Shown: piece by piece, positions 9,881 through 61,000 of the stretch
Position numbering within the stretch: the first letter of the stretch is position 1
How the letters are laid out: each line of letters opens with the position of its first letter
NCBI GenBank assembly: GCA_002189035.1
Contig: NEEC01000036.1
Span: 1-64,000 of the forward strand
Source: Utricularia gibba
Taxonomy: Eukaryota; Streptophyta; Magnoliopsida; Lamiales; Lentibulariaceae
Length of the DNA stretch: 64,000 nt
Direction: 5' to 3'
Position numbers and translations under genes: made by a program
Notes under the pieces: generated by a model
The model's database searches: none
Told to the model about the DNA's origin: nothing
Seen by the model: only the letters and a program-made list of their open reading frames with translations

Positions 9881-9894
9881 TTGAAAAAATCATG

Positions 9895-11127
9895 TGGGGC
9901 ACGTGACATCTTACTTTAAACAAATGCATCATTATTTTCGTCGACTCGCACCCGGTTGGGCTCATGAGCCGGACCGAACGCAGCGCCGGACCAAGTGCCC
10001 AGTGAGAGTGGCCGACACAAAACGAGAAGTTGTTCCTTGAAAAACCTTGTAGGAAGCCCCTGAAAACCGAACGTTAATAAGTGCATCGCTTTAGTTGCCA
10101 GGCTACAACTAACTTTCGGCCCTAACCCAACCTGACCTTTGTCAGGTGCCCCAAGGCCTGTATCCACGTGAGCATCATTATTTTCGTCGACTCGCAATGA
10201 GCCGGACCGAACGCAGCGCCGGACCAAGTGCCCAGTGAGAGTGGCCGACACAAAACGAGAAGTTGTTCCTTGAAAAACCTTGTAGGAAGCCCCTGAAAAC
10301 CGAACGTTAATAAGTGCATCGCTTTAGTTGCCAGGCTACAACTAACTTTCGGCCCTAACCCAACCTGACCTTTGTCCCGTTCTAGGTGCCCCCCAAGACC
10401 GCCTCCTCAAGTATAAAGTAAGTTGTTGAAAAAATCATGTGGGGTGCACGTGACATCTTACTTTAAACAAATGCATCATTATTTTCGTCGACTCGCACCC
10501 GGTTGGGCTCATGAGCCGGACCGAACGCAGCGCCGGACCAAGTGCCCAGTGAGAGTGGCCGACACAAAACGAGAAGTTGTTCCTTGAAAAACCTTGTAGG
10601 AAGCCCCTGAAAACCGAACGTTAATAAGTGCAAAAAATCATGTGGGGTGCACGTGACATCTTACTTTAAACAAATGCATCATTATTTTCGTCGACTCGCA
10701 CATGAGTGACCTATCCCTGTTCGAACGAGAAGGTTGTATAAAGTAAGTTGTTGAAAAAATCCACGTGACATCTTACTTTAAACAAATGCATCATTATTTT
10801 CGTCGACTCGCACCCGGTTGGGCTCATGAGCCGGACCGAACGCAGCGCCGGACCAAGTGCCCAGAAGAGTTGTTCCTTGAAAAACCTTGTAGGAAGCCCC
10901 TGAAAACCGAACGTTAATAAGTGCATCGCTTTAGTTGCCAGGCTACAACTAACTTTCGGCCTAACCCAACCTGACCTTTGTCCCGACTTCTAGAGTGCCC
11001 CCGACACAAAACGACCGCCTCCTCAAGTATAAATCGCTTTAGTTGCCAGGCTACAACTAACTTTCGGCCCTAACCCAACCTGAAGGTGCCCCCCAAGAAT
11101 CATGTGGGGTGCACGTGACATCTTACT
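9895..11127 (+). repeat. Disrupted stretch: truncated and fused copies
   Basis: Phase spacing falls from 313 to about 246, 301, 203, 112 and then 350 bp. Joins include GTCAGGTGCC and CCACGTGAGCATC near 10141-10180, CTCGCAATGAG at 10191, GTGCAAAAAATC near 10630, AAAATCCACGTGAC near 10760, and a re-entry at 11027-11105 that repeats the GCTTTAGTTGCCAGG to CCCAACCTGA segment a second time. Almost all the DNA is still monomer sequence in the original orientation. Confidence 0.88.
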
Positions 11128-13798
11128 TTAAACAAATGCATCATTATTTTCGTCGACTCGCACCCGGTTGGGCTCATGAGCCGGACCGAACGCAGCGCCG
11201 GACCAAGTGCCCAGTGAGAGTGGCCGACACAAAACGAGAAGTTGTTCCTTGAAAAACCTTGTAGGAAGCCCCTGAAAACCGAACGTTAATAAGTGCATCG
11301 CTTTAGTTGCCAGGCTACAACTAACTTTCGGCCCTAACCCAACCTGACCTTTGTCCCGTTCTAGGTGCCCCCAAGACCGCCTCCTCAAGTATAAAGTAAG
11401 TTGTTGAAAAAATCATGTGGGGTGCACGTGACATCTTACTTTAAACAAATGCATCATTATTTTCGTCGACTCGCACCCGGTTGGGCTCATGAGCCGGACC
11501 GAACGCAGCGCCGGACCAAGTGCCCAGTGAGAGTGGCCGACACAAAACGAGAAGTGTTCCTTGAAAAACCTTGTAGGAAGCCCCTGAAAACCGAACGTTA
11601 ATAAGTGCATCGCTTTAGTTGTGGCCCTACGAACCCCCATCTTACATGTGGGGTGCACGTGACATCTTACTTTAAACAAATGCATCATTATTTTCGTCGA
11701 CTCGCACCCGGTTGGGCTCATGAGCCGGACCGAACGCAGCGCCGGACCAAGTGCCCAGTGAGAGTGGCCGACACAAAACGAGAAGTTGTTCCTTGAAAAA
11801 CCTTGTAGGAAGCCCCTGAAAACCGAACGTTAATAAGTGCATCGCTTTAGTTGCCAGGCTACAACTAACTTTCGGCCCTAACCCAACCTGACCTTTGTCC
11901 CGTTCTAGGTGCCCCCAAGACCGCCTCCTCAAGTATAAAGTAAGTTGTTGAAAAAATCATGTGGGGTGCACGTGACATCTTACTTTAAACAAATGCATCA
12001 TTATTTTCGTCGACTCGCACCCGGTTGGGCTCATGAGCCGGACCGAACGCAGCGCCGGACCAAGTGCCCAGTGAGAGTGGCCGACACAAAACGAGAAGTT
12101 GTTCCTTGAAAAACCTTGTAGGAAGCCCCTGAAAACCGAACGTTAATAAGTGCATCGCTTTAGTTGCCAGGCTACAACTAACTTTCGGCCCTAACCCAAC
12201 CTGACCTTTGTCCCGTTCTAGGTGCCCCCCAAGACCGCCTCCTCAAGTATAAAGTAAGTTGTTGAAAAAATCATGTGGGGTGCACGTGACATCTTACTTT
12301 AAACAAATGCATCATTATTTTCGTCGACTCGCACCCGGTTGGGCTCATGAGCCGGACCGAACGCAGCGCCGGACCAAGTGCCCAGTGAGAGTGGCCGACA
12401 CAAAACGAGAAGTTGTTCCTTGAAAAACCTTGTAGGAAGCCCCTGAAAACCGAACGTTAATAAGTGCATCGCTTTAGTTGCCAGGCTACAACTAACTTTC
12501 GGCCCTAACCCAACCTGACCTTTGTCCCGTTCTAGGTGCCCCCAAGACCGCCTCCTCAAGTATAAAGTAAGTTGTTGAAAAAATCATGTGGGTGCACGTG
12601 ACATCTTACTTTAAACAAATGCATCATTATTTTCGTCGACTCGCACCCGGTTGGGCTCATGAGCCGGACCGAACGCAGCGCCGGACCAAGTGCCCAGTGA
12701 GAGTGGCCGACACAAAACGAGAAGTTGTTCCTTGAAAAACCTTGTAGGAAGCCCCTGAAAACCGAACGTTAATAAGTGCATCGCTTTAGTTGCCAGGCTA
12801 CAACTAACTTTCGGCCCTAACCCAACCTGACCTTTGTCCCGTTCTAGGTGCCCTCCTCAAGTATAAAGTAAGTTGTTGAAAAAATCATGTGGGGTGCATG
12901 ACATCCTTTAAACAAATGCATCATTATTTTCGTCGACTCGCACCCGGTTGGGCTCATGAGCCGGACCGAACGCAGCGCCGGACCAAGTGCCCAGTGAGAG
13001 TGGCCGACACAAAACGAGAAGTTGTTCCTTGAAAAACCTTGTAGGAAGCCCCTGAAAACCGAACGTTAATAAGTGCATCGCTTTAGTTGCCAGGCTACAA
13101 CTAACTTTCGGCCCTAACCCAACCTGACCTTTGTCCCGTTCTAGGTGCCCCCCAAGACCCTCCTCAAGTATAAAGTAAGTTGTTGAAAAAATCCACGTGA
13201 CATCTTACTTTAAACAAATGCATCATTATTTTCGTCGACTCGCACCCGGTTGGGCTCATGAGCCGGACCGAACGCAGCGCCGGACCAAGTGCCCAGTGAG
13301 AGTGGCCGACACAAAACGAGAAGTTGTTCCTTGAAAAACCTTGTAGGAAGCCCCTGAAAACCGAACGTTAATAAGTGCATCGCTTTAGTTGCCAGGCTAC
13401 AACTAACTTTCGGCCCTAACCCAACCTGACCTTTGTCCCGTTCTAGGTGCCCCCCAAGACCGCCTCCTCAAGTATAAAGTAAGTTGTTGAAAAAATCATG
13501 TGGGGTGCACGTGACATCTTACTTTAAACAAATGCATCATTATTTTCGTCGACTCGCACCCGGTTGGGCTCATGAGCCGGACCGAACGCAGCGCCGACCA
13601 AGTGCCCAGTGAGAAGTAAAAACCTTGTTGAAAACCGAACGTTAATAAGTGCATCGCTTTAGTTGCCAGGCTACAACTAACTTTCGGCCCTAACCCAACC
13701 TGACCTTTGTCCCGTTCTAGGTGCCCCCAAGACCGCCTCCTCAAGTATAAAGTAAGTTGTTGAAAAAATCATGTGGGGTGCACGTGACATCTTACTTT
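11128..13798 (+). repeat. Mostly full copies with several small and medium deletions
   Basis: Phase marks at 11136, 11449, 11680, 11993, 12307, 12619, 12916, 13218, 13532 and 13805. The 231-bp interval (11449-11680) holds a join reading TTAGTTGTGGCCCTACGAAC followed by CCCCCATCTTACATGTGG. Smaller losses occur near 12851 (GTGCCCTCCTC), 12896-12906 (GTGCATGACATCCTTTAAAC), 13158 and 13193. The copy at 13532 loses 40 bp between GAGAAG and the AAAACCGAACG word. Confidence 0.88.
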
Positions 13799-16700
13799 AA
13801 ACAAATGCATCATTATTTTCGTCGACTCGCACCCGGTTGGGCTCATGAGCCGGACCGAACGCAGCGCCGGACCAAGTGCCCAGTGAGAGTGGCCGACACA
13901 AAACGAGAAGTTGTTCCTTGAAAAACCTTGTAGGAAGCCCCTGAAAACCGAACGTTAATAAGTGCATCGCTTTAGTTGCCAGGCTACAACTAACTTTCGG
14001 CCCTAACCCAACCTGACCTTTGTCCCGTTCTAGGTGCCCCCAAGACCGCCTCCTCAAGTATAAAGTAAGTTGTTGAAAAAATCATGTGGGGTGCACGTGA
14101 CATCTTACTTTAAACAAATGCATCATTATTTTCGTCGACTCGCACCCGGTTGGGCTCATGAGCCGGACCGAACGCAGCGCCGGACCAAGTGCCCAGTGAG
14201 AGTGGCCGACACAAAACGAGAAGTTGTTCCTTGAAAAACCTTGTAGGAAGCCCCTGAAAACCGAACGTTAATAAGTGCATCGCTTTAGTTGCCAGGCTAC
14301 AACTAACTTTCGGCCCTAACCCAACCTGACCTTTGTCCCGTTCTAGGTGCCCCCAAGACCGCCTCCTCAAGTATAAAGTAAGTTGTTGAAAAAATCATGT
14401 GGGGTGCACGTGACATCTTACTTTAAACAAATGCATCATTATTTTCGTCGACTCGCACCCGGTTGGGCTCATGAGCCGGACCGAACGCAGCGCCGGACCA
14501 AGTGCCCAGTGAGAGTGGCCGACACAAAACGAGAAGTTGTTCCTTGAAAAACCTTGTAGGAAGCCCCTGAAAACCGAACGTTAATAAGTGCATCGCTTTA
14601 GTTGCCAGGCTACAACTAACTTTCGGCCCTAACCCAACCTGACCTTTGTCCCGTTCTAGGTGCCCCCAAGACCGCCTCCTCAAGTATAAAGTAAGTTGTT
14701 GAAAAAATCATGTGGGGTGCACGTGACATCTTACTTTAAACAAATGCATCATTATTTTCGTCGACTCGCACCCGGTTGGGCTCATGAGCCGGACCGAACG
14801 CAGCGCCGGACCAAGTGCCCAGTGAGAGTGGCCGACACAAAACGAGAAGTTGTTCCTTGAAAAACCTTGTAGGAAGCCCTGAAAACCGAACGTTAATAAG
14901 TGCATCGCTTTAGTTGCCAGGCTACAACTAACTTTCGGCCCTAACCCAACCTGACCTTTGTCCCGTTCTAGGTGCCCCCAAGACCGCCTCCTCAAGTATA
15001 AAGTAAGTTGTTGAAAAAATCATGTGGGGTGCACGTGACATCTTACTTTAAACAAATGCATCATTATTTTCGTCGACTCGCACCCGGTTGGGCTCATGAG
15101 CCGGACCGAACGCAGCGCCGGACCAAGTGCCCAGTGAGAGTGGCCGACACAAAACGAGAAGTTGTTCCTTGAAAAACCTTGTAGGAAGCCCCTGAAAACC
15201 GAACGTTAATAAGTGCATCGCTTTAGTTGCCAGGCTACAACTAACTTTCGGCCCTAACCCAACCTGACCTTTGTCCCGTTCTAGGTGCCCCCCAAGACCG
15301 CCTCCTCAAGTATAAAGTAAGTTGTTGAAAAAATCATGTGGGGTGCACGTGACATCTTACTTTAAACAAATGCATCATTATTTTCGTCGACTCGCACCCG
15401 GTTGGGCTCATGAGCCGGACCGAACGCAGCGCCGGACCAAGTGCCCAGTGAGAGTGGCCGACACAAAACGAGAAGTTGTTCCTTGAAAAACCTTGTAGGA
15501 AGCCCCTGAAAACCGAACGTTAATAAGTGCATCGCTTTAGTTGCCAGGCTACAACTAACTTTCGGCCCTAACCCAACCTGACCTTTGTCCCGTTCTAGGT
15601 GCCCCCAAGACCGCCTCCTCAAGTATAAAGTAAGTTGTTGAAAAAATCATGTGGGGTGCACGTGACATCTTACTTTAAACAAATGCATCATTATTTTCGT
15701 CGACTCGCACCCGGTTGGGCTCATGAGCCGGACCGAACGCAGCGCCGGACCAAGTGCCCAGTGAGAGTGGCCGACACAAAACGAGAAGTTGTTCCTTGAA
15801 AAACCTTGTAGGAAGCCCCTGAAAACCGAACGTTAATAAGTGCATCGCTTTAGTTGCCAGGCTACAACTAACTTTCGGCCCTAACCCAACCTGACCTTTG
15901 TCCCGTTCTAGGTGCCCCCCAAGACCGCCTCCTCAAGTATAAAGTAAGTTGTTGAAAAAATCATGTGGGGTGCACGTGACATCTTACTTTAAACAAATGC
16001 ATCATTATTTTCGTCGACTCGCACCCGGTTGGGCTCATGAGCCGGACCGAACGCAGCGCCGGACCAAGTGCCCAGTGAGAGTGGCCGACACAAAACGAGA
16101 AGTTGTTCCTTGAAAAACCTTGTAGGAAGCCCCTGAAAACCGAACGTTAATAAGTGCATCGCTTTAGTTGCCAGGCTACAACTAACTTTCGGCCCTAACC
16201 CAACCTGACCTTTGTCCCGTTCTAGGTGCCCCCAAGACCGCCTCCTCAAGTATAAAGTAAGTTGTTGAAAAAATCATGTGGGGTGCACGTGACATCTTAC
16301 TTTAAACAAATGCATCATTATTTTCGTCGACTCGCACCCGGTTGGGCTCATGAGCCGGACCGAACGCAGCGCCGGACCAAGTGCCCAGTGAGAGTGGCCG
16401 ACACAAAACGAGAAGTTGTTCCTTGAAAAACCTTGTAGGAAGCCCCTGAAAACCGAACGTTAATAAGTGCATCGCTTTAGTTGCCAGGCTACAACTAACT
16501 TTCGGCCCTAACCCAACCTGACCTTTGTCCCGTTCTAGGTGCCCCCAAGACCGCCTCCTCAAGTATAAAGTAAGTTGTTGAAAAAATCATGTGGGGTGCA
16601 CGTGACATCTTACTTTAAACAAATGCATCATTATTTTCGTCGACTCGCACCCGGTTGGGCTCATGAGCCGGACCGAACGCAGCGCCGGACCAAGTGCCCA

Positions 16701-17320
16701 GTGAGAGTGGCCGACACAAAACGAGAAGTTGTTCCTTGAAAAACCTTGTAGGAAGCCCCTGAAAACCGAACGTTAATAAGTGCATCGCTTTAGTTGCCAG
16801 GCTACAACTAACTTTCGGCCCTAACCCAACCTGACCTTTGTCCCGTTCTAGGTGCCCCCCAAGACCGCCTCCTCAAGTATAAAGTAAGTTGTTGAAAAAA
16901 TCATGTGGGGTGCACGTGACATCTTACTTTAAACAAATGCATCATTATTTTCGTCGACTCGCACCCGGTTGGGCTCATGAGCCGGACCGAACGCAGCGCC
17001 GGACCAAGTGCCCAGTGAGAGTGGCCGACACAAAACGAGAAGTTGTTCCTTGAAAAACCTTGTAGGAAGCCCCTGAAAACCGAACGTTAATAAGTGCATC
17101 GCTTTAGTTGCCAGGCTACAACTAACTTTCGGCCCTAACCCAACCTGACCTTTGTCCCGTTCTAGGTGCCCCCCAAGACCGCCTCCTCAAGTATAAAGTA
17201 AGTTGTTGAAAAAATCATGTGGGGTGCACGTGACATCTTACTTTAAACAAATGCATCATTATTTTCGTCGACTCGCACCCGGTTGGGCTCATGAGCCGGA
17301 CCGAACGCAGCGCCGGACCA
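13799..17320 (+). repeat. Regular block, eleven to twelve copies
   Basis: Phase marks from 13805 to 17251 are spaced 313, 313, 313, 312, 314, 313, 314, 313, 313, 314 and 314 bp. The one 312-bp copy has C3 instead of C4 in AAGCCCTG near 14877. No rearrangement is seen until the join near 17321. Confidence 0.92.
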
Positions 17321-19625
17321 GAAAAAGTATCATGTGGGGTGCACGTGACATCTTACTTTAAACAAATGCATCATTATTTTCGTCGACTCGCACCCGGTTG
17401 GGCTCATGAGCCGGACCGAACGCAGCGCCGGACCAAGTGCCCAGTGAGAGTGGCCGACACAAAACGAGAAGTTGTTCCTTGAAAAACCTTGTAGGAAGCC
17501 CCTGAAAACCGAACGTTAATAAGTGCATCGCTTTAGTTGCCAGGCTACAACTAACTTTCGGCCCTAACCCAACCTGACCTTTGTCCCGTTCTAGGTGCCC
17601 CCAAGACCGCCTCCTCAAGTATAAAGTAAGTTGTTGAAAAAATCATGTGGGGTGCACGTGACATCTTACTTTAAACAAATGCATCATTATTTTCGTCGAC
17701 TCGCACCCGGTTGGGCTCATGAGCCGGACCGAACGCAGCGCCGGTGCCCAGTGAGAGTGGCCGACACAAAACGAGAAGTTGTTCCTTGGTAGGAAGCCCC
17801 TGAGGACTTTAATTCTAGGTTGCCAAGGCCCTAACCCAACCTGACCTTTGTCCTTCTAAAGACCGCCTCCTCAAGTATAAAGTAAGTTGTTGAAAAAATC
17901 ATGTGGGGTGCACGTGACATCTTACTTTAAACAAATGCATCATTATTTTCGTCGACTCGCACCCGGTTGGGCTCATGAGCCGGACCGAACGCAGCGCCGG
18001 ACCAAGTGCCCACCGTTGCCCAGTGAGAGTGTGCCGAGTTGCCAGGCTAAACTAACGAACCTGACCTTTGTCCCGTTCTAGGTTCCTCAAGTATCATGTG
18101 GGGTGCACGTGACATCTTACTTTAAACAAATGCATCATTATTTTCGTCGACTCGCACCCGGTTGGGCTCATGAGCCGGACCGAACGCAGCGCCGGACCAA
18201 GTGCCCAGTGAGAGTGGCCGACACAAAACGAGAAGTTGTTCCTTGAAAAACCTTGTAGGAAGCCCCTGAAAACCGAACGTTAATAAGTGCATCGCTTTAG
18301 TTGCCAGGCTACAACTAACTTTCGGCCCTAACCCAACCTGACCTTTGTCCCGTTCTAGGTGCCCCCAAGACCGCCTCCTCAAGTATAAAGTAAGTTGTTG
18401 AAAAATGACATGCATCAGTCGACTCGCAATGAGTAAGTTTGTTCCTTGAAAAAATGAAATGTGCATCGGTTGTGGCAACGACACATCCTCAAGTATAAAG
18501 TAAGTTGTTGAAAAAATCATGTGGGGTGCACGTGACATCTTACTTTAAACAAATGCATCATTATTTTCGTCGACTCGCACCCGGTTGGGCTCATGAGCCG
18601 GACCGAACGCAGCGCCGGACCAAGTGCCCAGTGAGAGTGGCCGACACAAAACGAGAAGTTGTTCCTTGAAAAACCTTGTAGGAAGCCCCTGAAAACCGAA
18701 CGTTAATAAGTGCATCGCTTTAGTTGCCAGGCTACAACTAACTTTCGGCCCTAACCCAACCTGACCTTTGTCCCGGTTCCTCAGTAAGTTGCCCCCTTAA
18801 AGACCGCCTCCTCAAGTATAAAGTAAGTTGTTGAAAAAATCATGTGGGGTGCACGTGACATCTTACTTTAAACAAATGCATCATTATTTTCGTCGACTCG
18901 CACCCGGTTGGGCTCATGAGCCGGACCGAACGCAGCGCCGGACCAAGTGCCCAGTGAGAGTGGCCGACACAAAACGAGAAGTTGTTCCTTGCATCATTAT
19001 TTTCGTCGACTCGCACCTTGTCATGGCCTGAAAACCGAACGTTAATAAGTGCATCGCTTTAGTTGCCAGGCTACAACTAACTTTCGGCCCTAACCCAACC
19101 TGACCTTTGTCCCGTTCTAGGTGCCCCCAAGACCGCCTCCTCAAGTATAAAGTAAGTTGTTGAAAAAATCATGTGGGGTGCACGTGACATCTTACTTTAA
19201 ACAAATGCATCATTATTTTCGTCGACTCGCACCCTCATGAGTTGAGAGTGGCCGACACAAAACGAGAAGTTGTTCCTTGAAAAACCTTGTAGGAAGCCCC
19301 TGAAAACCGAACGTTAATAAGTGCATCGCTTTAGTTGCCAGGCTACAACTAACTTTCGGCCCTAACCCAACCTGACCTTTGTCCCTTCTAGGTGCCCCCC
19401 CAAGTACCGTGACACCGACACGAGAAGTTGTTCCTTGAAAAACCTTGTAGGAAGCCCCTGAAAACCGAACGTTAATAAGTGCATCGCTTTAGTTGCCAGG
19501 CTACAACTAACTTTCGGCCCTAACCCAACCTGACCTTTGTCCCGTTCTAGGTGCCCCCAAGACCGCCTCTCAAGTATAAAGTAAGTTGTTGAAAAAATCA
19601 TGTGGGGTGCACGTGACATCTTACT
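17321..19625 (+). repeat. Disrupted stretch with short copies and a misplaced segment
   Basis: Phase spacing is 115, 313, 256, 195, about 280, 143, 323, 329 and 429 bp. Notable parts are the join GGACCAGAAAAAGTATCATG (17317), a compressed copy at 17745-17880, a mini-copy at 18406-18500 that keeps only scattered words, and a join from GCCCCCCCAAGTACC into CCGACACGAGAAG near 19400 that removes about 200 bp, including the phase word. Confidence 0.88.
18991..19016 (+). repeat. Misplaced monomer segment replacing another part of the copy
   Basis: The words GCATCATTATTTTCGTCGAC and TCGCACC appear a second time within the same copy, between GTTGTTCCTT and GTCATGGCCTG, where AAAAACCTTGTAGGAAGC would normally lie. 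It duplicates sequence from about 110 bp upstream in the same orientation. It looks like template switching or non-homologous patching rather than simple unequal crossing over, which would keep the copy in register. Confidence 0.82.
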
Positions 19626-22498
19626 TTAAACAAATGCATCATTATTTTCGTCGACTCGCACCCGGTTGGGCTCATGAGCCGGACCGAACGCAGCGCCGGA
19701 CCAAGTGCCCAGTGAGAGTGGCCGACACAAAACGAGAAGTTGTTCCTTGAAAAACCTTGTAGGAAGCCCCTGAAAACCGAACGTTAATAAGTGCATCGCT
19801 TTAGTTGCCAGGCTACAACTAACTTTCGGCCCTAACCCAACCTGACCTTTGTCCCGTTCTAGGTGCCCCAAGACGCCTCCTCAAGTATAAAGTAAGTTGT
19901 TGAAAAAATCATGTGGGGTGCACGTGACATCTTACTTTAAACAAATGCATCATTATTTTCGTCGACTCGCACCCGGTTGGGCTCATGAGCCGGACCGAAC
20001 GCAGCGCCGGACCAAGTGCCCAGTGAGAGTGGCCGACACAAAACGAGAAGTTGTTCCTTGAAAAACCTTGTAGGAAGCCCCTGAAAACCGAACGTTAATA
20101 AGTGCATCGCTTTAGTTGCCAGGCTACAACTAACTTTCGGCCCTAACCCAACCTGACCTTTGTCCCGTTCTAGGTGCCCCCAAGACCGCCTCCTCAAGTA
20201 TAAAGTAAGTTGTTGAAAAAATCATGTGGGGTGCACGTGACATCTTACTTTAAACAAATGCATCATTATTTTCGTCGACTCGCACCCGGTTGGGCTCATG
20301 AGCCGGACCGAACGCAGCGCCGGACCAAGTGCCCAGTGAGAGTGGCCGACACAAAACGAGAAGTTGTTCCTTGAAAAACCTTGTAGGAAGCCCCTGAAAA
20401 CCGAACGTTAATAAGTGCATCGCTTTAGTTGCCAGGCTACAACTAACTTTCGGCCCTAACCCAACCTGACCTTTGTCCCGTTCTAGGTGCCCCCAAGACC
20501 GCCTCCTCAAGTATAAAGTAAGTTGTTGAAAAAATCATGTGGGGTGCACGTGACATCTTACTTTAAACAAATGCATCATTATTTTCGTCGACTCGCACCC
20601 GGTTGGGCTCATGAGCCGGACCGAACGCAGCGCCGGACCAAGTGCCCAGTGAGAGTGGCCGACACAAAACGAGAAGTTGTTCCTTGAAAAACCTTGTAGG
20701 AAGCCCCTGAAAACCGAACGTTAATAAGTGCATCGCTTTAGTTGCCAGGCTACAACTAACTTTCGGCCCTAACCCAACCTGACCTTTGTCCCGTTCTAGG
20801 TGCCCCCAAGACCGCCTCCTCAAGTATAAAGTAAGTTGTTGAAAAAATCATGTGGGGTGCACGTGACATCTTACTTTAAACAAATGCATCATTATTTTCG
20901 TCGACTCGCACCCGGTTGGGCTCATGAGCCGGACCGAACGCAGCGCCGGACCAAGTGCCCAGTGAGTGGCCGACACAAAACGAGAAGTTGTTCCTTGAAA
21001 AACCTTGTAGGAAGCCCCTGAAAACCGAACGTTAATAAGTGCATCGCTTTAGTTGCCAGGCTACAACTAACTTTCGGCCCTTGACCTTTGTCCCGTTCTA
21101 GGTGCCCCCAAGACCGCCTCCTCAAGTATAAAGTAAGTTGTTGAAAAAATCATGTGGGGTGCACGTGACATCTTACTTTAAACAAATGCATCATTATTTT
21201 CGTCGACTCGCACCCGGTTGGGCTCATGAGCCGGACCGAACGCAGCGCCGGACCAAGTGCCCAGTGAGAGTGGCCGACACAAAACGAGAAGTTGTTCCTT
21301 GAAAAACCTTGTAGGAAGCCCCTGAAAACCGAACGTTAATAAGTGCATCGCTTTAGTTGCCAGGCTACAACTAACTTTCGGCCCTAACCCAACCTGACCT
21401 TTGTCCCGGTTCCTCAAGGTAAGTTGTTGAAAAAATCATGTGGGGTGCACGTGACATCTTACTTTAAACAAATGCATCATTATTTTCGTCGACTCGCACC
21501 CGGTTGGGCTCATGAGCCGGACCGAACGCAGCGCCGGACCAAGTGCCCAGTGAGAGTGGCCGACACAAAACGAGAAGTTGTTCCTTGAAAAACCTTGTAG
21601 GAAGCCCCTGAAAACCGAACGTTAATAAGTGCATCGCTTTAGTTGCCAGGCTACAACTAACTTTCGGCCCTAACCCAACCTGACCTTTGTCCCGTTCTAG
21701 GTGCCCCCAAGACCGCCTCCTCAAGTATAAAGTAAGTTGTTGAAAAAATCATGTGGGGTGCACGTGACATCTTACTTTAAACAAATGCATCATTATTTTC
21801 GTCGACTCGCACCCGGTTGGGCTCATGAGCCGGACCGAACGCAGCGCCGGACCAAGTGCCCAGTGAGAGTGGCCGACACAAAACGAGAAGTTGTTCCTTG
21901 AAAAACCTTGTAGGAAGCCCCTGAAAACCGAACGTTAATAAGTGCATCGCTTTAGTTGCCAGGCTACAACTAACTTTCGGCCCTAACCCAACCTGACCTT
22001 TGTCCCGTTCTAGGTGCCCCCCAAGACCGCCTCCTCAAGTATAAAGTAAGTTGTTGAAAAAATCATGTGGGGTGCACGTGACATCTTACTTTAAACAAAT
22101 GCATCATTATTTTCGTCGACTCGCACCCGGTTGGGCTCATGAGCCGGACCGAACGCAGCGCCGGACCAAGTGCCCAGTGAGAGTGGCCGACACAAAACGA
22201 GAAGTTGTTCCTTGAAAAACCTTGTAGGAAGCCCCTGAAAACCGAACGTTAATAAGTGCATCGCTTTAGTTGCCAGGCTACAACTAACTTTCGGCCCTAA
22301 CCCAACCTGACCTTTGTCCCGTTCTAGGTGCCCCCCAAGACCGCCTCCTCAAGTATAAAGTAAGTTGTTGAAAAAATCATGTGGGGTGCACGTGACATCT
22401 TACTTTAAACAAATGCATCATTATTTTCGTCGACTCGCACCCGGTTGGGCTCATGAGCCGGACCGAACGCAGCGCCGGACCAAGTGCCCAGTGAGTGG
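19626..22498 (+). repeat. Mostly regular block, ten copies
   Basis: Phase marks from 19634 to 22413 with spacings 311, 313, 313, 313, 302, 286, 313, 314 and 314 bp. The 302-bp copy has small losses near 20966 (GTGAGTGGCC) and 21080 (GGCCCTTGACC). The 286-bp copy carries the CCCGGTTCCTCAAGG join at 21406-21419, a deletion type seen again elsewhere. Confidence 0.9.
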
Positions 22499-48000: not shown

Positions 48001-48108
48001 CCTAACCCAACCTGACCTTTGTCCCGTTCTAGGTGCCCCCAAGACCGCCTCCTCAAGTATAAAGTAAGTTGTTGAAAAAATCATGTGGGGTGCACGTGAC
48101 ATCTTACT
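45091..48108 (+). repeat. Longest stretch dominated by truncated copies
   Basis: Phase spacings are 367, 166, 232, 313, 221, 290, 277, 277, about 191, about 106, about 311, 239 and 248 bp. Joins at 45099 and 46687 are the same (CCCGGTTCTCAAG). Others are GTCCCGGTGTGCACG (45211), GTCCCGGTTGCCGCATC (45615), CACCCTCATGAGTGCC (45983), GGACCAAGTACCACGTG (46143), AAAATCCACGTGAC (46715), AAGTACATGTGACG (46989), CATCACGTGAGCATC (47311) and TTGTCAGGTGCC (47813). Confidence 0.88.
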
Positions 48109-49270
48109 TTAAACAAATGCATCATTATTTTCGTCGACTCGCACCCGGTTGGGCTCATGAGCCGGACCGAACGCAGCGCCGGACCAAGTGCCCAGTGAGA
48201 GTGGCCGACACAAAACGAGAAGTTGTTCCTTGAAAAACCTTGTAGGAAGCCCCTGAAAACCGAACGTTAATAAGTGCATCGCTTTAGTTGCCAGGCTACA
48301 ACTAACTTTCGGCCCTAACCCAACCTGACCTTTGTCCCGTTCTAGGTGCCCCCAAGACCGCCTCCTCAAGTATAAAGTAAGTTGTTGAAAAAATCATGTG
48401 GGGTGCACGTGACATCTTACTTTAAACAAATGCATCATTATTTTCGTCGACTCGCACCCGGTTGGGCTCATGAGCCGGACCGAACGCAGCGCCGGACCAA
48501 GTGCCCAGTGAGAGTGGCCGACACAAAACGAGAAGTTGTTCCTTGAAAAACCTTGTAGGAAGCCCCTGAAAACCGAACGTTAATAAGTGCATCGCTTTAG
48601 TTGCCAGGCTACAACTAACTTTCGGCCCTAACCCAACCTGACCTTTGTCCCGTTCTAGGTGCCCCCCAAGACCGCCTCCTCAAGTATAAAGTAAGTTGTT
48701 GAAAAAATCATGTGGGGTGCACGTGACATCTTACTTTAAACAAATGCATCATTATTTTCGTCGACTCGCACCCGGTTGGGCTCATGAGCCGGACCGAACG
48801 CAGCGCCGGACCAAGTGCCCAGTGAGAGTGGCCGACACAAAACGAGAAGTTGTTCCTTGAAAAACCTTGTAGGAAGCCCCTGAAAACCGAACGTTAATAA
48901 GTGCATCGCTTTAGTTGCCAGGCTACAACTAACTTTCGGCCCTAACCCAACCTGACCTTTGTCCCGTTCTAGGTGCCCCCAAGACCGCCTCCTCAAGTAT
49001 AAAGTAAGTTGTTGAAAAAATCATGTGGGGTGCACGTGACATCTTACTTTAAACAAATGCATCATTATTTTCGTCGACTCGCACCCGGTTGGGCTCATGA
49101 GCCGGACCGAACGCAGACCAAGTGCCCAGTGAGAGTGGCCGACACAAAACGAGAAGTTGTTCCTTGAAAAACCTTGTAGGAAGCCCCTGAAAACCGAACG
49201 TTAATAAGTGCATCGCTTTAGTTGCCAGGCTACAACTAACTTTCGGCCCTAACCCAACCTGACCTTTGTC
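48109..49270 (+). repeat. Short regular block, almost four copies
   Basis: Phase marks 48117, 48430, 48744 and 49057 with spacings 313, 314 and 313 bp. The last copy loses GCGCCGG near 49117 and ends at the CCCGGTTGTATCC join near 49271. Confidence 0.91.
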
Positions 49271-51130
49271 CCGGTTGTATCCACCATCTTACTTTAAACA
49301 AATGCATCATTATTTTCGTCGACTCGCACCCGGTTGGGCTCATGAGCCGGACCGAACGCAGCGCCGGACCAAGTGCCCAGTGAGAGTGGCCGACACAAAA
49401 CGAGAAGTTGTTCCTTGAAAAACCTTGTAGGAAGCCCCTGAAAACCGAACGTTAATAAGTGCATCGCTTTAGTTGCCAGGCTACAACTAACTTTCGGCCC
49501 TAACCCAACCTGACCTTTGTCCCGTTCTAGGTGCCCCCCAAGACCGCCTCCTCAAGCCACGTGACATCTTACTTTAAACAAATGCATCATTATTTTCGTC
49601 GACTCGCACCCGGTTGGGCTCATGAGCCGGACCGAACGCAGCGCCGGACCAAGTGCCCAGTGAGAGTGGCCGACACAAAACGAGAAGTTGTTCCTTGAAA
49701 AACCTTGTAGGAAGCCCCTGAAAACCGAACGTTGAAGGTAAGTGCATCGTTTAGTTGCCAGGCTTTAACTTTCGGCCCTAACCCAACCTGACCTTTGTCC
49801 CGCACCCGGTTGGGACTCATTGAAGCCGGACCGAACGCAGCGCCGGACCAAGTGCCCAGTGAGAGTGGCCGACACAAAACGAGAAGTTGTTCCTTGAAAA
49901 ACCTTGTAGGAAGCCCCTGAAAACCGAACGTTAATAAGTGCATCGCTTTAGTTGTCGACAGGCTACAACTAACTTTCGGCCCTAACCCAACCTGACCTTT
50001 GTCCCGTTCTAGGTGCCCCCAAGACCGCCTCCTCAAGTATAAAGTAAGTTGTTGAAAAAATCACGTGTGGTCGGTTGGGCACCGTGACCGATTGTTCCTT
50101 AAAACCTTGTAGGAAGCCCCTGAAAACCGAACGTCATTTAGTTGCATTAACTTTTTTACTCGCACACGGTGGTCGACTCATTGACCGGACCGAACGCAGC
50201 GCCGGACCAAGTGCCCAGTGAGAGTGGCCGACACAAAACGAGAAGTTGTTCCTTGAAAACCCTTGGCCCTAGACAAGTGAAAACCACGTGACATCGTTGT
50301 CGACTAATGTGCATGAGAGTGGCCGACTTTAGTTGATCTTACACTAACTTTCGGACCCTAATGCCTGACCTTTGTCCCGTTCTAGGTGCCCCCAAGACCG
50401 CCTCCTCAAGTATAAAGTAAGTTGTTGAAAAAATCATGTGGGGTGCACGTGACATCTTACTTTAAACAAATGCATCATTATTTTCGTCGACTCGCACCCG
50501 GTTGGGCTCATGAGCCGGACCGAACGCAGCGCCGGACCGAACAAAACGAGAAGTGTTCCTTGAAAAACCTTGTAGGAAGCCCCTGAAAACCGAACGTTAA
50601 TAAGTGCATCGCTTTAGTTGCCAGGCTACAACTAACTTTCGGCCCTAACCCAACCTGACCTTTGTCCCGTTCTAGGTGCCCCCAAGACCGCCTCCTCAAG
50701 TATAAAGTAAGTTGTTGAAAAAATCCTTGAAAAACCTTGTAGGAAGCCCTGCCCAAAACCGAGACGTTGTAATGAAGTGCATCGCTTTAGTTGCCAGGCT
50801 ACAACTAACTTTCGGCCCTAACCCAACCTGACCTTTGTCCCTTCTAGGTGCCCCAAGACCGCCTCCTCAAGTATAAAGTAAGTTGTTGAAAAAATCATGT
50901 GGGGTGCACCATCTTAAAACAAATGCATCATTATTTTCGTCGACTCGCACCCGGTTGGGCTCATGAGTAGTGAGAGTGGCCGACACAAAACGAGAAGTTT
51001 TCCTTGAAAAACCTTGTAGGAAGCCCCTGAAAACCGAACGTTGATCGCTTTAGTTGCCAAAACTAACTTTCGGCCCTAACCCAACCTGACCTTTGTCCCG
51101 TTCTAGGTGCCCCCAAGACCGCCTCCTCAA
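49271..51130 (+). repeat. Disrupted stretch, including an 888-bp gap between phase words
   Basis: Phase marks are 49302, 49582, 50470, 50923 and 51191. Between 49730 and 50440 the unit repeats from GCACCCGGTTGGG to the A-tract but the phase word is absent. Examples of altered text are ACGTTGAAGGTAAGTG (49730), CGCACCCGGTTGGGACTCATTG (49801, shown here as two adjoining words), GTTGTCGACAGGCTAC (49952), and a scrambled part at 50064-50370. A later copy joins GAAAAAATC directly to CTTGAAAAACC near 50724. Confidence 0.83.
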
Positions 51131-53995
51131 GTATAAAGTAAGTTGTTGAAAAAATCATGTGGGGTGCACGTGACATCTTACTTTAAACAAATGCATCATT
51201 ATTTTCGTCGACTCGCACCCGGTTGGGCTCATGAGCCGGACCGAACGCAGCGCCGGACCAAGTGCCCAGTGAGAGTGGCCGACACAAAACGAGAAGTTGT
51301 TCCTTGAAAAACCTTGTAGGAAGCCCCTGAAAACCGAACGTTAATAAGTGCATCGCTTTAGTTGCCAGGCTACAACTAACTTTCGGCCCTAACCCAACCT
51401 GACCTTTGTCCCGTTCTAGGTGCCCCCCAAGACCGCCTCCTCAAGTATAAAGTAAGTTGTTGAAAAAATCATGTGGGGTGCACGTGACATCTTACTTTAA
51501 ACAAATGCATCATTATTTTCGTCGACTCGCACCCGGTTGGGCTCATGAGCCGGACCGAACGCAGCGCCGGACCAAGTGCCCAGTGAGAGTGGCCGACACA
51601 AAACGAGAAGTTGTTCCTTGAAAAACCTTGTAGGAAGCCCCTGAAAACCGAACGTTAATAAGTGCATCGCTTTAGTTGCCAGGCTACAACTAACTTTCGG
51701 CCCTAACCCAACCTGACCTTTGTCCCGTTCTAGGTGCCCCCCAAGACCGCCTCCTCAAGTATAAAGTAAGTTGTTGAAAAAATCATGTGGGGTGCACGTG
51801 ACATCTTACTTTAAACAAATGCATCATTATTTTCGTCGACTCGCACCCGGTTGGGCTCATGAGCCGGACCGAACGCAGCGCCGGACCAAGTGCCCAGTGA
51901 GAGTGGCCGACACAAAACGAGAAGTTGTTCCTTGAAAAACCTTGTAGGAAGCCCCTGAAAACCGAACGTTAATAAGTGCATCGCTTTAGTTGCCAGGCTA
52001 CAACTAACTTTCGGCCCTAACCCAACCTGACCTTTGTCCCGTTCTAGGTGCCCCCAAGACCGCCTCCTCAAGTATAAAGTAAGTTGTTGAAAAAATCATG
52101 TGGGGTGCACGTGACATCTTACTTTAAACAAATGCATCATTATTTTCGTCGACTCGCACCCGGTTGGGCTCATGAGCCGGACCGAACGCAGCGCCGGACC
52201 AAGTGCCCAGTGAGAGTGGCCGACACAAAACGAGAAGTTGTTCCTTGAAAAACCTTGTAGGAAGCCCCTGAAAACCGAACGTTAATAAGTGCATCGCTTT
52301 AGTTGCCAGGCTACAACTAACTTTCGGCCCTAACCCAACCTGACCTTTGTCCCGTTCTAGGTGCCCCCGAAGACCGCCTCCTCAAGTATAAAGTAAGTTG
52401 TTGAAAAAATCATGTGGGGTGCACGTGACATCTTACTTTAAACAAATGCATCATTATTTTCGTCGACTCGCACCCGGTTGGGCTCATGAGCCGGACCGAA
52501 CGCAGCGCCGGACCAAGTGCCCAGTGAGAGTGGCCGACACAAAACGAGAAGTTGTTCCTTGAAAAACCTTGTAGGAAGCCCCTGAAAACCGAACGTTAAT
52601 AAGTGCATCGCTTTAGTTGCCAGGCTACAACTAACTTTCGGCCCTGAACCCAACCTGACCTTTTGTCCCGTTCCGTCAGGTGCCCCCTTACAAGATCCGA
52701 CCTCCCGTTCAAGTAAGTAAAGTAAGTTGTTGAAAAAATCAAGTGTGGGGTGCACGTGACATCTTACTTTAAACAAATGCATCATTATTTTCGTCGACTC
52801 GCACCCGGTTGGGCTCATGAGCCGGACCGAACGCAGCGCCGGACCAAGTGCCCAGTGAGAGTGGCCGACACAAAACGAGAAGTTGTTCCTTGAAAAACCT
52901 TGTAGGAAGCCCCTGAAAACCGAACGTTAATAAGTGCATCGCTTTAGTTGCCAGGCTACAACTAACTTTCGGCCCTAACCCAACCTGAGGCCTTTGTCCC
53001 GTTCTAGGTGCCCCCCAAGACCGCCTCCTCAAGTATAAAGTAAGTTGTTGAAAAAATCATGTGGGTGCACGTGACATCTTACTTTAAACAAATGCATCAT
53101 TATTTTCGTCGACTCGCACCCGGTTGGGCTCATGAGCCGGACCGAACGCAGCGCGGACCAAGTGCCCAGTGAGAGTGGCCGACACAAAACGAGAAGTTGT
53201 TCCTTGAAAAACCTTGTAGGAAGCCCCTGAAAACCGAACGTTAATAAGTGCATCGCTTTAGTTGCCAGGCTACAACTAACTTTCGGCCCTAACCCAACCT
53301 GACCTTTGTCCCGTTCTAGGTGCCCCCAAGACCGCCTCCTCAAGTATAAAGTAAGTTGTTGAAAAATCATGTGGGGTGCACGTGACATCTTACTTTAAAC
53401 AAATGCATCATTATTTTCGTCGACTCGCACCCGGTTGGGCTCATGAGCCGGACCGAACGCAGCGCCGGACCAAGTGCCCAGTGAGAGTGGCCGACACAAA
53501 ACGAGAAGTTGTTCCTTGAAAAACCTTGTAGGAAGCCCCTGAAAACCGAACGTTAATAAGTGCATCGCTTTAGTTGCCAGGCTACAACTAACTTTCGGCC
53601 CTAACCCAACCTGACCTTTGTCCCGTTCTAGGTGCCCCCAAGACCGCCTCCTCAAGTATAAAGTAAGTTGTTGAAAAATCATGTGGGGTGCACGTGACAT
53701 CTTACTTTAAACAAATGCATCATTATTTTCGTCGACTCGCACCCGGTTGGGCTCATGAGCCGGACCGAACGCAGCGCCGGACCAAGTGCCCAGTGAGAGT
53801 GGCCGACACAAAACGAGAAGTTGTTCCTTGAAAAACCTTGTAGGAAGCCCCTGAAAACCGAACGTTAATAAGTGCATCGCTTTAGTTGCCAGGCTACAAC
53901 TAACTTTCGCCCTAACCCAACCTGACCTTTGTCCCGTTCTAGGTGCCCCCAAGACCGCCTCCTCAAGTATAAAGTAAGTTGTTGAAAAAATCATG
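51131..53995 (+). repeat. Mostly regular block with one expanded copy
   Basis: Phase marks 51191, 51505, 51819, 52132, 52446, 52777, 53092, 53403 and 53715. The 331-bp copy (52446-52777) is enlarged by scattered one- to four-base insertions between 52644 and 52745, such as CCCTGAACCC, CCTTTTGTCC, GTTCCGTCAGG, CCCCCTTACAAGATCCGACC and AAGTAAGTAAAGTAAG. Other copies are 311-315 bp with A or G homopolymer losses. Confidence 0.88.
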
Positions 53996-55463
53996 TGGGG
54001 TGCAACACAAATGCATCATTATTTTCGTCGACTCGCACCCGGTTGGGCTCATGAGCCGGACCGAACGCAGCGCCGGACCAAGTGCCCAGTGAGAGTGGCT
54101 TCCTTGAAAAACCTTGTAGGAAGCCCCTGAAAACCGAACGTTAATAAGTGCATCGCTTTAGTTGCCAGGCTACAACTAACTTTCGGCCCTAACCCAACCT
54201 GACCTTTGTCCCGTTCTAGGTGCCCCCAAGACCGCCTCCTCAAGTATAAAGTAAGTTGTTGAAAAAATCATGTGGGGTGCACGTGACATCTTACTTTAAA
54301 CAAATGCATCATTATTTTCAAACATTGTTTTTGAAAAACCTTGTAGGAAGCCCCTGAAAACCGAACGTTAATAAGTGCATCGCTTTAGTTGCCAGGCTAC
54401 AACTAACTTTCGGCCCTAACCCAACCTGACCTTTGTCGCAACCGAACGTGTTGGGCTCGCTTTGTGCCCAGTGAGAGCTAGGTGCCCCGAGAGAGTAACC
54501 TGACCTTTGTCCCTTTAACCTTGCATGTGACTCCTGAAGTGACATAAGTTGTCATCGCTTTAGTTGCCAGGCTACAACTAACTTTCGGCCCTAACCCAAC
54601 CTGACCTTGTCCCGTTCTAGGTGCCCCCAAGACCGCCTCCTCAAGTATAAAGTAAGTTGTTGAAAAAATCATGTGGGGTGCACGTGACATCTACTTTAAA
54701 CAAATGCATCATTATTTTCGTCGACTCGCACCGGTTGGGCTCATGAGTGCGCCGGACCAAGTAGCCCAAGTGCGAGTGCAGAGTGACAAGTAACAAAAGT
54801 GAGAATCCTTGAGAAGTTGTTCCTTGAAAAACCTGTAGGAAGCCCCTGAAAACCGAACGTTAATAAGTGCATCGCTTTAGTTGCCAGGCTACAACTAACT
54901 TTCGCCCTAACCAACCTGACCTTGTCCCGTTCTAGGTGCCCCCAAGACCGCCTCCTCAAGTATAAAGTAGTTGTTGAAAAAATCATGTGGGGTGCACGTG
55001 ACATCTTACTTTAAACAAATGCATCCCGCCAGGCTGCCCAACTAACTTTCGGCCCCGAACCCAACCTATAAAGTAAGTTGTTGAAAAAATCATGTGGGGT
55101 GCACGTGACATCTTACTTTAAACAAATGCATCATTATTTTCGTCGACTCGCACCCGGTTGGGCTCATGAGCCGGACCGAACGTGCCCAGCCCACGAGACC
55201 GCCTCCCTCAAGTATAAAGAGTGCAGCCGTTGAAAAAATCATGTGGGGTGCACGTGACATCTTACTTAAACAAATGCATCATTATTTTCGTCGACTCGCA
55301 CCCGGTTGGGCTCATGAGCCGGACCGAACCCACTGAAAAACCGAACAAGTTAATAAGTGCATCGCTTTAGTTGCCAGGCTACAACTAACTTTCGGCCCTA
55401 ACCCAACCTGACCCGACCCGTTCTAACCCCAGACGTCCTCCTTGAAAAGTTGTAAGTAGAAGC

Positions 55464-55565
55464 CCCTGAAAACCGAACGTTAATAAGTGCATCGCTTCAT
55501 GTTGCCAGGTGCTACATCACTTCTTACTTTAAACAAATGCATCATTATTTTCGTCGACTCGCACC
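55464..55565 (+). repeat. Copy A of a duplicated rearranged segment
   Basis: This part carries the rare text CGCTTCATGTTGCCAGG followed by TGCTACATCACTTCTTAC (55493-55527), joining the CGCTTTAGTTGCC word to the TTACTTTAAAC word with a loss of about 110 bp. The same text occurs again 665 bp downstream with matching flanks of about 100 bp in total. Confidence 0.85.
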
Positions 55566-56128
55566 TAACCGGCTGATGAGCCGGACCGAACGCCCGTTCC
55601 GGACCAAGCCCCCAAGACCCAGTGCTCAAGTATAAAGTAAGTTGTTGAAAAAATCATGGGGGTGCACGTGACATCTTACTTTAAACAAATGCATCATTAT
55701 TTTCGTCGACTCGCACCCGTTGGCTCATGAGCCGGACCGAACGCAGCGCCGGACCAAGTGCCAGTGAGAGTGGCCGACACAAAACGAGAAGTTGTTCCTT
55801 GAAAACCTTGTAGGAAGCCCCTGAAAACCGAACGTTAATAAGTGCATCGCTTTAGTTGCCAGGCTACAACTAACTTTCGGCCCTAACCCAACCTGACCTT
55901 TGTCCCGTTCTAGTGCCCCCAAGACCGCCTCCTCAAGTATAAAGTAAGTTGTTGAAAAAATCATGTGGGGTGCACGTGACATCTTACTTTAAACAAATGC
56001 ATCATTATTTTCGTCGACTCGCACCGGTTGGGCTCATGAGCCGGACCGAACGCAGCGCCGGACCAAGTGCCCAGTGAGAGTGGCCGACACAAAACGAGAA
56101 GTTGTTCCTTGAAAAACCTTGTAGGAAG

Positions 56129-56230
56129 CCCTGAAAACCGAACGTTAATAAGTGCATCGCTTCATGTTGCCAGGTGCTACATCACTTCTTACTTTAAACA
56201 AATGCATCATTATTTTCGTCGACTCGCACC
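56129..56230 (+). repeat. Copy B of a duplicated rearranged segment
   Basis: It repeats the rare join of 55464-55565 base for base over about 100 bp, offset by 665 bp. Because the join is not part of the standard unit, the two must share one origin or one error source. Flanks differ: here AAGCCCTG precedes it and a normal CACCCGGTTGGG follows, while copy A is followed by CACCTAACCGGCTG. Confidence 0.85.
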
Positions 56231-58030
56231 CGGTTGGGCTCATGAGCCGGACCGAACGCAGCGCCGGTGACCTTGCCCAGTGAGAGTTCCGAGGTGAGAA
56301 GACCGCCTCCTCAAGTATAAAAGTGTTGAAAAAATCATGTGGGTGCACGTGACATCTTACTTTAAACAAATGCATCATTATTTTCGTCGACTCGCACCCG
56401 GTTGGGCTCATGAGCCGGACCGAACGCAGCGCCGGACCAAGTGCCCAGTGAGAGTGGCCGACACAAACGACGAGAATTGTGCATCCTTTAAAAACCTTGT
56501 CCCAGGAAGCCGCCTGAAAACCCAACCTGACCTTTGTCCCGTGCATCTTTAGTTGCCCCCAAGACTAACTTTCGGCCTCCTCACCCAACCTATAAAGTAA
56601 GTTGTTGAAAAAATCATGTGGGGTGCACGTCCCGACTTCTTGGTGCCCCCCAAGAAATGCCGCCTCCTCAAGTTATAAATTTTAAGTCGTTGAACCCGAA
56701 TCATGTGGGGTGCACGTGACATCTTACTTTAAACAAATGCATCATTATTTTCGTCGACTCGCACCCGGTTGGGCTCATGAGCCGGACCGAACGCAGCGCC
56801 GGACCAAGTGCCCAGTGAGAGTGGCCGACACAAAACGAGAAGTTGTTCCTTGAAAAACCTTGTAGGAAGCCCCTGAAAACCGAACGTTAATAAGTGCATC
56901 GCTTTAGTTGCCAGGCTACAACTAACTTTCGGCCCTAACCCAACCTGACCTTTGTCCGTTCTAGGTGCCCCCCAAGACCGCCTCAAGCAATAAAAAGTTG
57001 AGTTGTTGAAAAATCATGTGGGTGCACGTGACACTCTTACTTTAAACAAATGCATCATTATTTTCGTCGACTCGCACCGGTTGGCTCATGAGCCGGATGA
57101 GTGAGTGGCCGACACAAAACGAGAAGTTGTTCCTTGAAAAACCTTGTAGGAACCGGTTAATAAGTGCATCGCTTTAGTTGCCAGGCTACAACTAACTTTC
57201 GCAGCCCCGGACCAAGTGCCTGACCTTTGTCCAGGTGGCCCCCAAGCAACGAGAAGTTGTTCCTTGAAAAACCTTGTAGGAAGTAAGTTCCTTGAAAACC
57301 GAACGTTGGGGTAAGTGCATCGTGACATCTTACTTTAAACAAATGCATCATTATTTTCGTCGACTCGCACCCGGTTGGGCTCATGAGCCGGACCGAACGC
57401 AGCGCCGGACCAAGTGCCCAGTGAGAGTGGCCGACACAAAACGAGAAGTTGTTCGAAAAACCTTGTAGGAACCCTAACCCAACAAAACCGAACCCGTTAG
57501 GTGCCCCCAAGTACATCGCCTTAGCAAGTCCAGGCTAAGTAAGTTTGTTGAAAAAATAACCGATGTGGGGTGTCCCGTTTGAGGTGCCCCCAAGACCGCT
57601 CCTCAAGTATAAAGTAAGTTGTTGAAAAAATCATGTGGGGCACGTGACATCTTACTTTAATGCATCATTATTTTCGTCGACTCGCACCCGGTTGGGCTCA
57701 TGAGCCGGACCGAACGCAGCGCCGGACCGTCCCAGTGAGAGTGGCCGGTTGGGCTCAACTGAGAACCGAACCAGCGCCGGACCACCTTGTAGTGCCCAGT
57801 GAGAGTGGCCGACACAAACGACGAGAATTGTTCCTTGAAAAACCAGGCTGTAGGAAGCCCCTGAAAACAACCGACCTTAATAAGTTCATCGCTTTAGTTG
57901 CCAGGCTACAACTAACTTTCGGCCCCCCAAGAACCTGACCTTTGTCCCGTTCTAGGCCCCCAAGACCGCCTCCTCATGTGTATAAAGTAAGTTGTTGAAA
58001 ATACATGTGGGGTGCACGTGACATCTTACT

Positions 58031-61000
58031 TTAAACAAATGCATCATTATTTTCGTCGACTCGCACCCGGTTGGGCTCATGAGCCGGACCGAACGCAGCG
58101 CCGGACCAAGTGCCCAGTGAGAGTGGCCGACACAAAACGAGAAGTTGTTCCTTGAAAAACCTTGTAGGAAGCCCCTGAAAACCGAACGTTAATAAGTGCA
58201 TCGCTTTAGTTGCCAGGCTACAACTAACTTTCGGCCCTAACCCAACCTGACCTTTGTCCCGTTCTAGGTGCCCCCCAAGACCGCCTCCTCAAGTATAAAG
58301 TAAGTTGTTGAAAAAATCATGTGGGGTGCACGTGACATCTTACTTTAAACAAATGCATCATTATTTTCGTCGACTCGCAATGAGCCGGACCGAACGCAGC
58401 GCCGGACCAGTGCCCAGTGAGAGTGGCCGACACAAAACGAGAAGTTGTTCCTTGAAAAACCTTGTAGGAAGCCCTGAAAACCGAACGTTAATAAGTCGCT
58501 TTAGTTGCCAGGCTACAACTAACTTTCGGCGACCTTTGTCCCTTCTAAAGACCGCCTCCTCACATGTGGGTGCACGACATCTTACTTTAAACAAATGCAT
58601 CATTATTTTCGTCGACTCGCTTGGGCTCATGAGCCGGACCGAACGCAGCGCCGGACCAAGTGCCCAGTGAGAGTGGCCGACACAAAACGAGAAGTTGTTC
58701 CTTGAAAAACCTTGTAGGAAGCCCTGAAAACCGAACGTTAATAAGTGCATCGCTTTAGTTGCCAGGCTACAACTAACTTTCGGCCCTAACCCAACCTGAC
58801 CTTTGTCCCGTTCTACCCCCCAAGACCGCCTCCTCAAGTATAAAGTAAGTTGTTGAAAAAATCATGTGGGGTGCACGTGACATCTTACTTTAAACAAATG
58901 CATCATTATTTTCGTCGACTCGCACCCGGTTGGGCTCATGAGCCGACCGAACGCAACCAAGTGCCCAGTGAGAGTGGCCGACACAAAACGAGAAGTTGTT
59001 CCTTGAAAAACCTTGTAGGAAGCCCCTGAAAACCGAACGTTAATAAGTGCATCGCTTTAGTTGCCAGGCTACAACTAACTTTCGGCCCTAACCCAACCTG
59101 ACCTTTGTCCCGTTCTAGGTGCCCCCAAGACCGCCTCCTCAAGTATAAAGTAAGTTGTTGAAAAAATCATGTGGGGTGCACGTGACATCTTACTTTAAAC
59201 AAATGCATCATTATTTTCGTCGACTCGCACCCGGTTGGCTCATGAGCCGGACCGAACGCAGCGCCGGACCAAGTGCCCAGTGAGAGTGGCCGACACAAAA
59301 CGAGAAGTTGTTCCTTGAAAAACCTTGTAGGAAGCCCCTGAAAACCGAACGTTAATAAGTGCATCGCTTTAGTTGCCAGGCTACAACTAACTTTCGGCCC
59401 TAACCCAACCTGACCTTTGTCCCGTTCTAGGTGCCCCCAAGACCGCCTCCTCAAGTATAAAGTAAGTTGTTGAAAAAATCATGTGGGGTGCACGTGACAT
59501 CTTACTTTAAAAAATGCATCATTATTTTCGTCGACTCGCACATGAGCCGGACCGAACGCAGCGCCGGACCAAGTGCCCAGTGAGAGTGGCCGACACAAAC
59601 GAGAAGTTGTTCCTTGAAAAACCTTGTAGGAAGCCCCTGAAAACCGAACGTTAAATCGCTTTAGTTGCCAGGCTACAACTAACTTTCGGCCCTAACCCAA
59701 CCTGACCTTGTCCCGTTCTAGGTGCCCCCAAGACCGCCTCCTCAAGTATAAGTAAGTTGTTGAAAAATCATGTGGGGTGCACGTGACATCTTACTTTAAA
59801 CAATGCATCATTATTTTCGTCGACTCGCACCCGGTTGGGCTCATGAGCCGGACCGAACGCAGCGCCGGACCAAGTGCCCAGTGAGAGTGGCCGACACAAA
59901 ACGAGAAGTTGTTCCTTGAAAAACCTTGTAGGAAGCCCGAAAACCGAACGTTAATAAGTGCATCGCTTTAGTTGCCAGGCTACAACTAACTTTCGGCCCT
60001 AACCCAACCTGACCTTTGTCCCGTTCTAGGTGCCCCCAAGACCGCCTCCTCAAGTATAAAGTAAGTTGTTGAAAAAATCATGTGGGTGCACGTGACATCT
60101 TACTTTAAACAAATGCATCATTATTTTCGTCGACTCGCACCCGGTTGGGCTCATGAGCCGGACCGAACGCAGCGCCGGACCAAGTGCCCAGTGAGAGTGG
60201 CCGACACAAAACGAGAAGTTGTTCCTTGAAAACCTTGTAGGAAGCCCCTGAAAACCGAACGTTAAAAGTGCATCGCTTTAGTTGCCAGGCTACAACTAAC
60301 TTTCGGCCCTAACCCAACCTGACCTTTGTCCCTTCTAGGTGCCCCCAAGACCGCCTCCTCAAGTATAAAGTAAGTTGTTGAAAAATCATGTGGGGTGCAC
60401 GTGACATCTTACTTTAACAAATGCATCATTTTTTCGTCGACTCGTTGGCTCATGAGCCGGACGAACGCAGCGCCGGACCAAGTGCCCCACAAAAACGAGA
60501 AGTTGTTCCTTGAAAAACCTTGTAGTGAAAACCGAACGTTAATAAGTGCATCGCTTTAGTTGCCAGGCTACAACTAACTTTCGGCCCTAACCCAACCTGA
60601 CCTTTGTCCCGTTCTAGGTGCCCCCAATCCTCAAGTATAAAGTAAGTTGTTGAAAAAATCATGTGGGGTGCACGTGACATCTTACTTTAAACAAATGCAT
60701 CATTATTTTCGTCGACTCGCACCGGTTGGGCTCATGAGCCGGACCGAACGCAGCGCCGGACCAAGTGCCGTGAGAGTGGCCGACACAAAACGAGAAGTTG
60801 TTCCTTGAAAAACCTTGTAGGAAGCCCTGAAAACCGAACGTTAATAAGTGCATCGCTTTAGTTGCCAACAACTAACTTTCGGCCCTAACCCAACCTGACC
60901 TTTGTCCCGTTCTAGGTGCCCCCCAGACCGCCTCCTCAAGTATAAAGTAAGTTGTTGAAAAAATCATGTGGGTGCACGTGACATCTTACTTTAAACAAAT

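Follow-up and report, generated by a model that had tools for sequence, protein, structure and literature searches.

Recurrent deletion joins in a Lentibulariaceae satellite array are most likely ordinary errors of long-read assembly

Damaged copies of a plant tandem repeat can share deletion joins to the exact base, many kilobases apart. Do such joins record events in the chromosome, or were they made during assembly? The window analysed here, positions 1-64,000 of a 78,582-bp contig (C368), is occupied like the rest of that contig, from end to end, by a tandem array of a single 313-base satellite unit (1..64000, + strand). Repeat intervals were letter-identical in 48 cases at 313 bases and in 31 cases at 314 bases, the two forms being a single C apart, in a C5/C6 homopolymer run. 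With one 313/314-bp unit arranged head to tail at high identity over 78.6 kb, the array has the characteristics of satellite DNA. No dimer structure was found in it, and searches of a plasmid collection and of Rfam with the 313-bp unit gave no match. Contigs C62, C108 and C134 are composed of the same unit, and a 30-base anchor word from it has 940 exact copies in the 100.1-Mb, 516-contig assembly. All of the pure-satellite contigs observed were 21-79 kb long.

The near-perfect array in the window comes from a plant of the Lentibulariaceae, with Utricularia gibba the most likely species, and the assembly analysed is probably the PacBio/HGAP assembly of that species. A review describes the U. 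gibba assembly as PacBio data at 88-fold coverage, assembled with HGAP, with a mean subread of 10,385 bases and 581 contigs (PMC5793159). The 161-bp Gn7c161 repeat of Genlisea nigrocaulis likewise forms a long head-to-tail array of near-identical copies of a short unit in a Lentibulariaceae-type genome, whereas the Genlisea motifs, at 60-161 and 900 bp, differ in length from the 313/314-bp unit (PMC4542322). Satellite repeats were reported to be absent at putative U. gibba centromeres (PMC8333044); in contrast, the satellite contigs seen here, from two families, sum to several hundred kb, with the window, C62, C108 and C134 among them. Elsewhere in the assembly, an 18S rRNA gene fragment, which we read as angiosperm, is inserted adjoining a copia-like element (C451; L022 1500-1830), and the mitochondrial cox1 gene (C515:183547-185854) carries the Cys-Cys motif LLCCSA, its frame running on into a LAGLIDADG-like intron ORF. 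The exact residues of the contiguous-cysteine cox1 change in Utricularia and Genlisea are reportedly given by Jobson et al. 2004. A cox1 mutation exclusive to the two genera has also been described (PMC5749785). The species assignment is based on the one Cys-Cys motif together with assembly size.

Ten k-mers, designated A to J here, had been listed in the first-pass annotation as recurrent deletion joins. All were recovered by exact string search, at most one base from the positions claimed and on the + strand only. K-mer A occurs at 10754, 13186 and 46713, B at 10165, 28409 and 47314, C at 19230, 36264 and 45982, F at 28075 and 36494, G at 27998 and 60519, H at 27982 and 47094, I at 25112 and 28802, and J at 10137 and 47811. 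Cyclic Viterbi alignment confirmed A, B, D, E, G, H, I and J as single joins of 7-20 bases; the description does not fit C and F, each of which holds more than one change. Join A (10754..10769, +) links AAAAAATC to CACGTGAC with the loss of 10 bases, and is also present in C134 and in a sibling satellite at C84:15647. Join D (10191..10205, +) links CTCGCA to ATGAGCCGG with 13 bases lost; further copies lie at 58374 and 61319, and C108 has one. Join E (11079..11090, +), in which CCTGA meets AGGTGCC after the loss of 15 bases, recurs at 22756 and 41036, giving three copies in C368, with two more in C108 and one in C134.

Damage in the window was clustered into 38 blocks (spacing CV 3.65). Clustered damage lies within 30 bp of 22% of the bases, and the perfect runs between blocks, in which no join of at least 2 bases occurs, reach 8 kb. 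The stretch 1756..9898 (+, 8.1 kb) is clean, with no such joins, no clustered change and no substitutions. Damaged blocks follow at 9899..13629 (+), containing joins A, B, D, E and J, and at 17744..19420 (+), with 45 changes other than single-base indels. In the worst block, 25777..28455 (+), there are 155 such changes in 2.7 kb; the order of the satellite words is scrambled, and joins B, F, G and H are present. A series of blocks at 43193..47916 (+) contains joins A, B, C, H and J, and further damaged blocks occupy 54005..58002 (+). From 58000 to 64000 the scrambles give way to mainly single-base deletions, as near the ends of other satellite contigs, a shift that may reflect a change of underlying read. 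On C108, the stretch L028 5000-8900 (reverse strand) is cleaner than the window's scrambled blocks, showing almost exclusively deletions, with words of 20-60 bases still in order.

To compare recurrence with chance, the window was aligned to the 313-base consensus by cyclic Viterbi alignment permitting jumps, and every join was left-normalised. Breaks were then placed evenly, with lengths as in the observed joins, in 300 simulation runs. The 419 joins of at least 2 bases formed 44 shared classes, against 15.7 expected (maximum 28), and 65 identical pairs, against 18.5 expected (maximum 34). Sharing among joins of 2-6 bases was close to even-break chance. The excess was located in the 123 joins of 7-30 bases, with 19 shared classes against 2.65 expected and 33 identical pairs against about 2.8-2.9, a number that never exceeded 12 in any run. 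The claim of non-random repetition therefore holds. That damaged copies reuse a small set of joins is true in part: the reuse is real, but the list was selective, as 365 distinct joins were found among the 419, so that the majority occurred only once.

The spectrum of changes was determined from isolated changes, defined as having no other change within 30 bp, in 166 kb of the 313-bp satellite. These comprised 308 single-base deletions, 10 single-base insertions and 9 substitutions. In the window, 1 of 165 substitutions lay more than 30 bp from any other change. Single-base deletions per available base rose from 26/142 outside runs to 87/20 in runs of four. The spectrum is thus of the type produced by errors, being dominated by indels and dependent on homopolymers, with hardly any substitutions outside clusters. 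Larger losses preferred G+C-rich words (0.64-0.68 against 0.50 in C134), and the deletion profile across all contigs tracked local G+C content (r 0.50; 1 of 312 rotations was equally high).

Break positions were analysed in 262 joins of 7-30 bases from four contigs (C368, C108, C134 and C62). Breaks were distributed non-randomly along the monomer, with hot left edges at positions 195, 67, 210, 86 and 254, and hot right edges at 83, 102, 306, 93 and 171. When all observed edges were fixed and their left and right partners shuffled inside the length range, the re-paired edges gave 80 of the 117 identical pairs, against 13 with even breaks. Most of the recurrence excess is due to preferred break edges, and the idea that a special shared event is required for exact repetition is unsupported. 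In C368 alone, re-pairing accounted for about 18 (18.4) of the 33 identical pairs, leaving a remainder that may stem from a noisy read used more than once. A one-way reading effect, by which left ends would be tighter than right ends, was discarded; it appeared in C108 (5.5 versus 6.3 bits) but was absent in C368. The deletion profiles of different contigs were correlated (r 0.44-0.70), and 17 distinct joins of 7-30 bases were common to C368 and the set of C108, C134 and C62, against 4.1 expected.

Sharing extended to a second family. The sibling satellite, 86% identical to the 313-bp family, fills contig C84 and is present on at least 12 further contigs. Its commonest unit is 316 bp, and it occupies many contigs of 20-60 kb (C84, C90, C54, C10 and others). 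Unlike the 313-bp family, it shows recurring substitutions, 157 A>G and 64 A>C, the former up to 15 times within one 10-kb piece, a pattern to be expected of real satellite evolution. At C84:15647, where join A was found, the local sequence is identical in the two families. Mixing of sibling reads, under which words differing between the two families would be lost, was also considered and rejected, as losses did not correlate with sibling divergence (r 0.08).

Could the joins be real deletion variants, each of single origin, that spread within and between arrays through unequal crossing-over or gene conversion? Some joins do have identical flanks of 215-372 bp, sharing across contigs would be expected under spread, and the 157 A>G variants of the sibling show that normal exchange takes place in this genome. 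However, substitutions are nearly absent from the 313-bp family, where deletion alleles number in the hundreds, and the joins are concentrated in scrambled blocks instead of being scattered over clean monomers. Join A, moreover, occurs in two families that differ at 14% of sites. Changes neighbouring recurrent joins were mostly not shared, apart from certain pairs, most of them no more than about 0.7 kb apart, and the long identical flanks are simply consensus sequence. Copying of damaged units therefore fails to explain the joins. The exceptions with shared neighbours were complex scrambles exactly duplicated nearby, one 665 bases apart (about 55490 and 56155) and another 114 bases apart (27200 and 27314), as though the same noisy stretch had served twice. 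Together, the preferred edges, the sharing across contigs and with the sibling, and the unlinked neighbours indicate that the joins are set by local sequence and not inherited, and we regard the spread of real variants as improbable.

A real mutational process at fixed sites of the monomer, whether through hairpins, end joining after breaks or the fragility of G+C-rich words, might instead recreate identical microdeletions. It would fit the preference for particular edges with variable partners, and the G+C-richness of the lost words. Microhomology, however, was not in excess: the 85 clean joins had 0, 1, 2 and 3 bases in 47, 18, 16 and 4 cases, against 47.6, 22.2, 10.2 and 3.3 expected. Near-homology at joins showed no excess either (z -1.7 to 1.4), and hairpin propensity had no link to the deletion profile (r -0.05). 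Microhomology, near-homology and hairpins were therefore rejected as the cause, and their lack of excess speaks against deletion by end joining, by slippage or through DNA structure. Microhomology-mediated deletion and replication slippage do resemble the present case in producing short deletions inside repeats, but differ in that the joins here lack such an excess. Several dozen preferred edges per monomer would also have to be accommodated, and a 30-fold predominance of homopolymer single-base deletions over insertions is an error signature. Such a process is thus very unlikely. Taken as real, the joins would mean that a minimal plant genome harbours a young satellite undergoing repeated microdeletions at fixed G+C-rich edges, without microhomology and with hardly any substitutions, a reading we consider equally hard to credit. 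Chance coincidence among many breaks, the least probable reading of all, would cover the 2-6-base joins, shared at near the even-break expectation, but is ruled out for joins of at least 7 bases by the excess of pairs and the sharing across contigs.

The first-pass annotation had also named a consensus artefact as an option, which was a fair possibility. We estimate a probability of roughly 0.84 that the window is a near-perfect array assembled from PacBio continuous long reads of U. gibba, and that its damaged copies are stretches of failed read consensus. As errors would land at the same preferred edges repeatedly, the joins are most likely ordinary errors of long-read assembly and not a new DNA process. 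Reads from a tandem array cannot be uniquely placed, so polishing would be unable to mend the draft. The draft would omit poorly supported words, mainly G+C-rich words and homopolymers, and then skip to the next well-supported word. Because all monomers share one sequence, words would be lost at identical edges every time, and identical left and right edges would meet independently in many places, including other contigs and even the sibling satellite. We infer that the responsible step was the draft consensus, not the chromosome.

A toy graph consensus of noisy reads from a perfect array produced deletion-rich, word-scrambled blocks resembling those observed. With even errors, it failed to recover the edge preference (profile r 0.03 and -0.02), and exact recurrence of 7-30-base joins was absent. 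Once deletions were biased towards G+C-rich sequence and homopolymers, the profile was matched in part, at one setting only (r 0.41; 0 of 312 rotations as high), while joins of at least 7 bases were no more recurrent than expected from even breaks. Clean loss of entire words of 10-25 bases is atypical of raw PacBio error. As the toy models yielded no exact longer joins, the case for consensus failure leans on the change spectrum and on the sharing across contigs and families, and we infer the step that fixes the edges. Draft-consensus errors in unpolishable repeats of noisy long-read assemblies resemble the present case in being dominated by deletions, dependent on homopolymers and arranged in blocks, and in occurring in contigs of satellite alone while genes elsewhere are clean. 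They differ in that the exact 7-30-base joins here recur more than toy graph consensus produces. Among the few genes sampled from other parts of the assembly, full-length histone frames and the cox1 exon frame were open; the best histone matches covered the domain without a stop, 18 of the 20 best being stop-free.

Base-exact recurrence is no proof of biology, as a sequence-dependent error process will repeat itself in a tandem array. A cheap and general test combines the ratio of isolated substitutions to deletions, the re-pairing of break ends and a check whether a diverged sibling family carries the join too. Caution is warranted when satellite evolution, be it deletion alleles, recurrent breakpoints or rearranged blocks, is inferred from unpolished long-read drafts.
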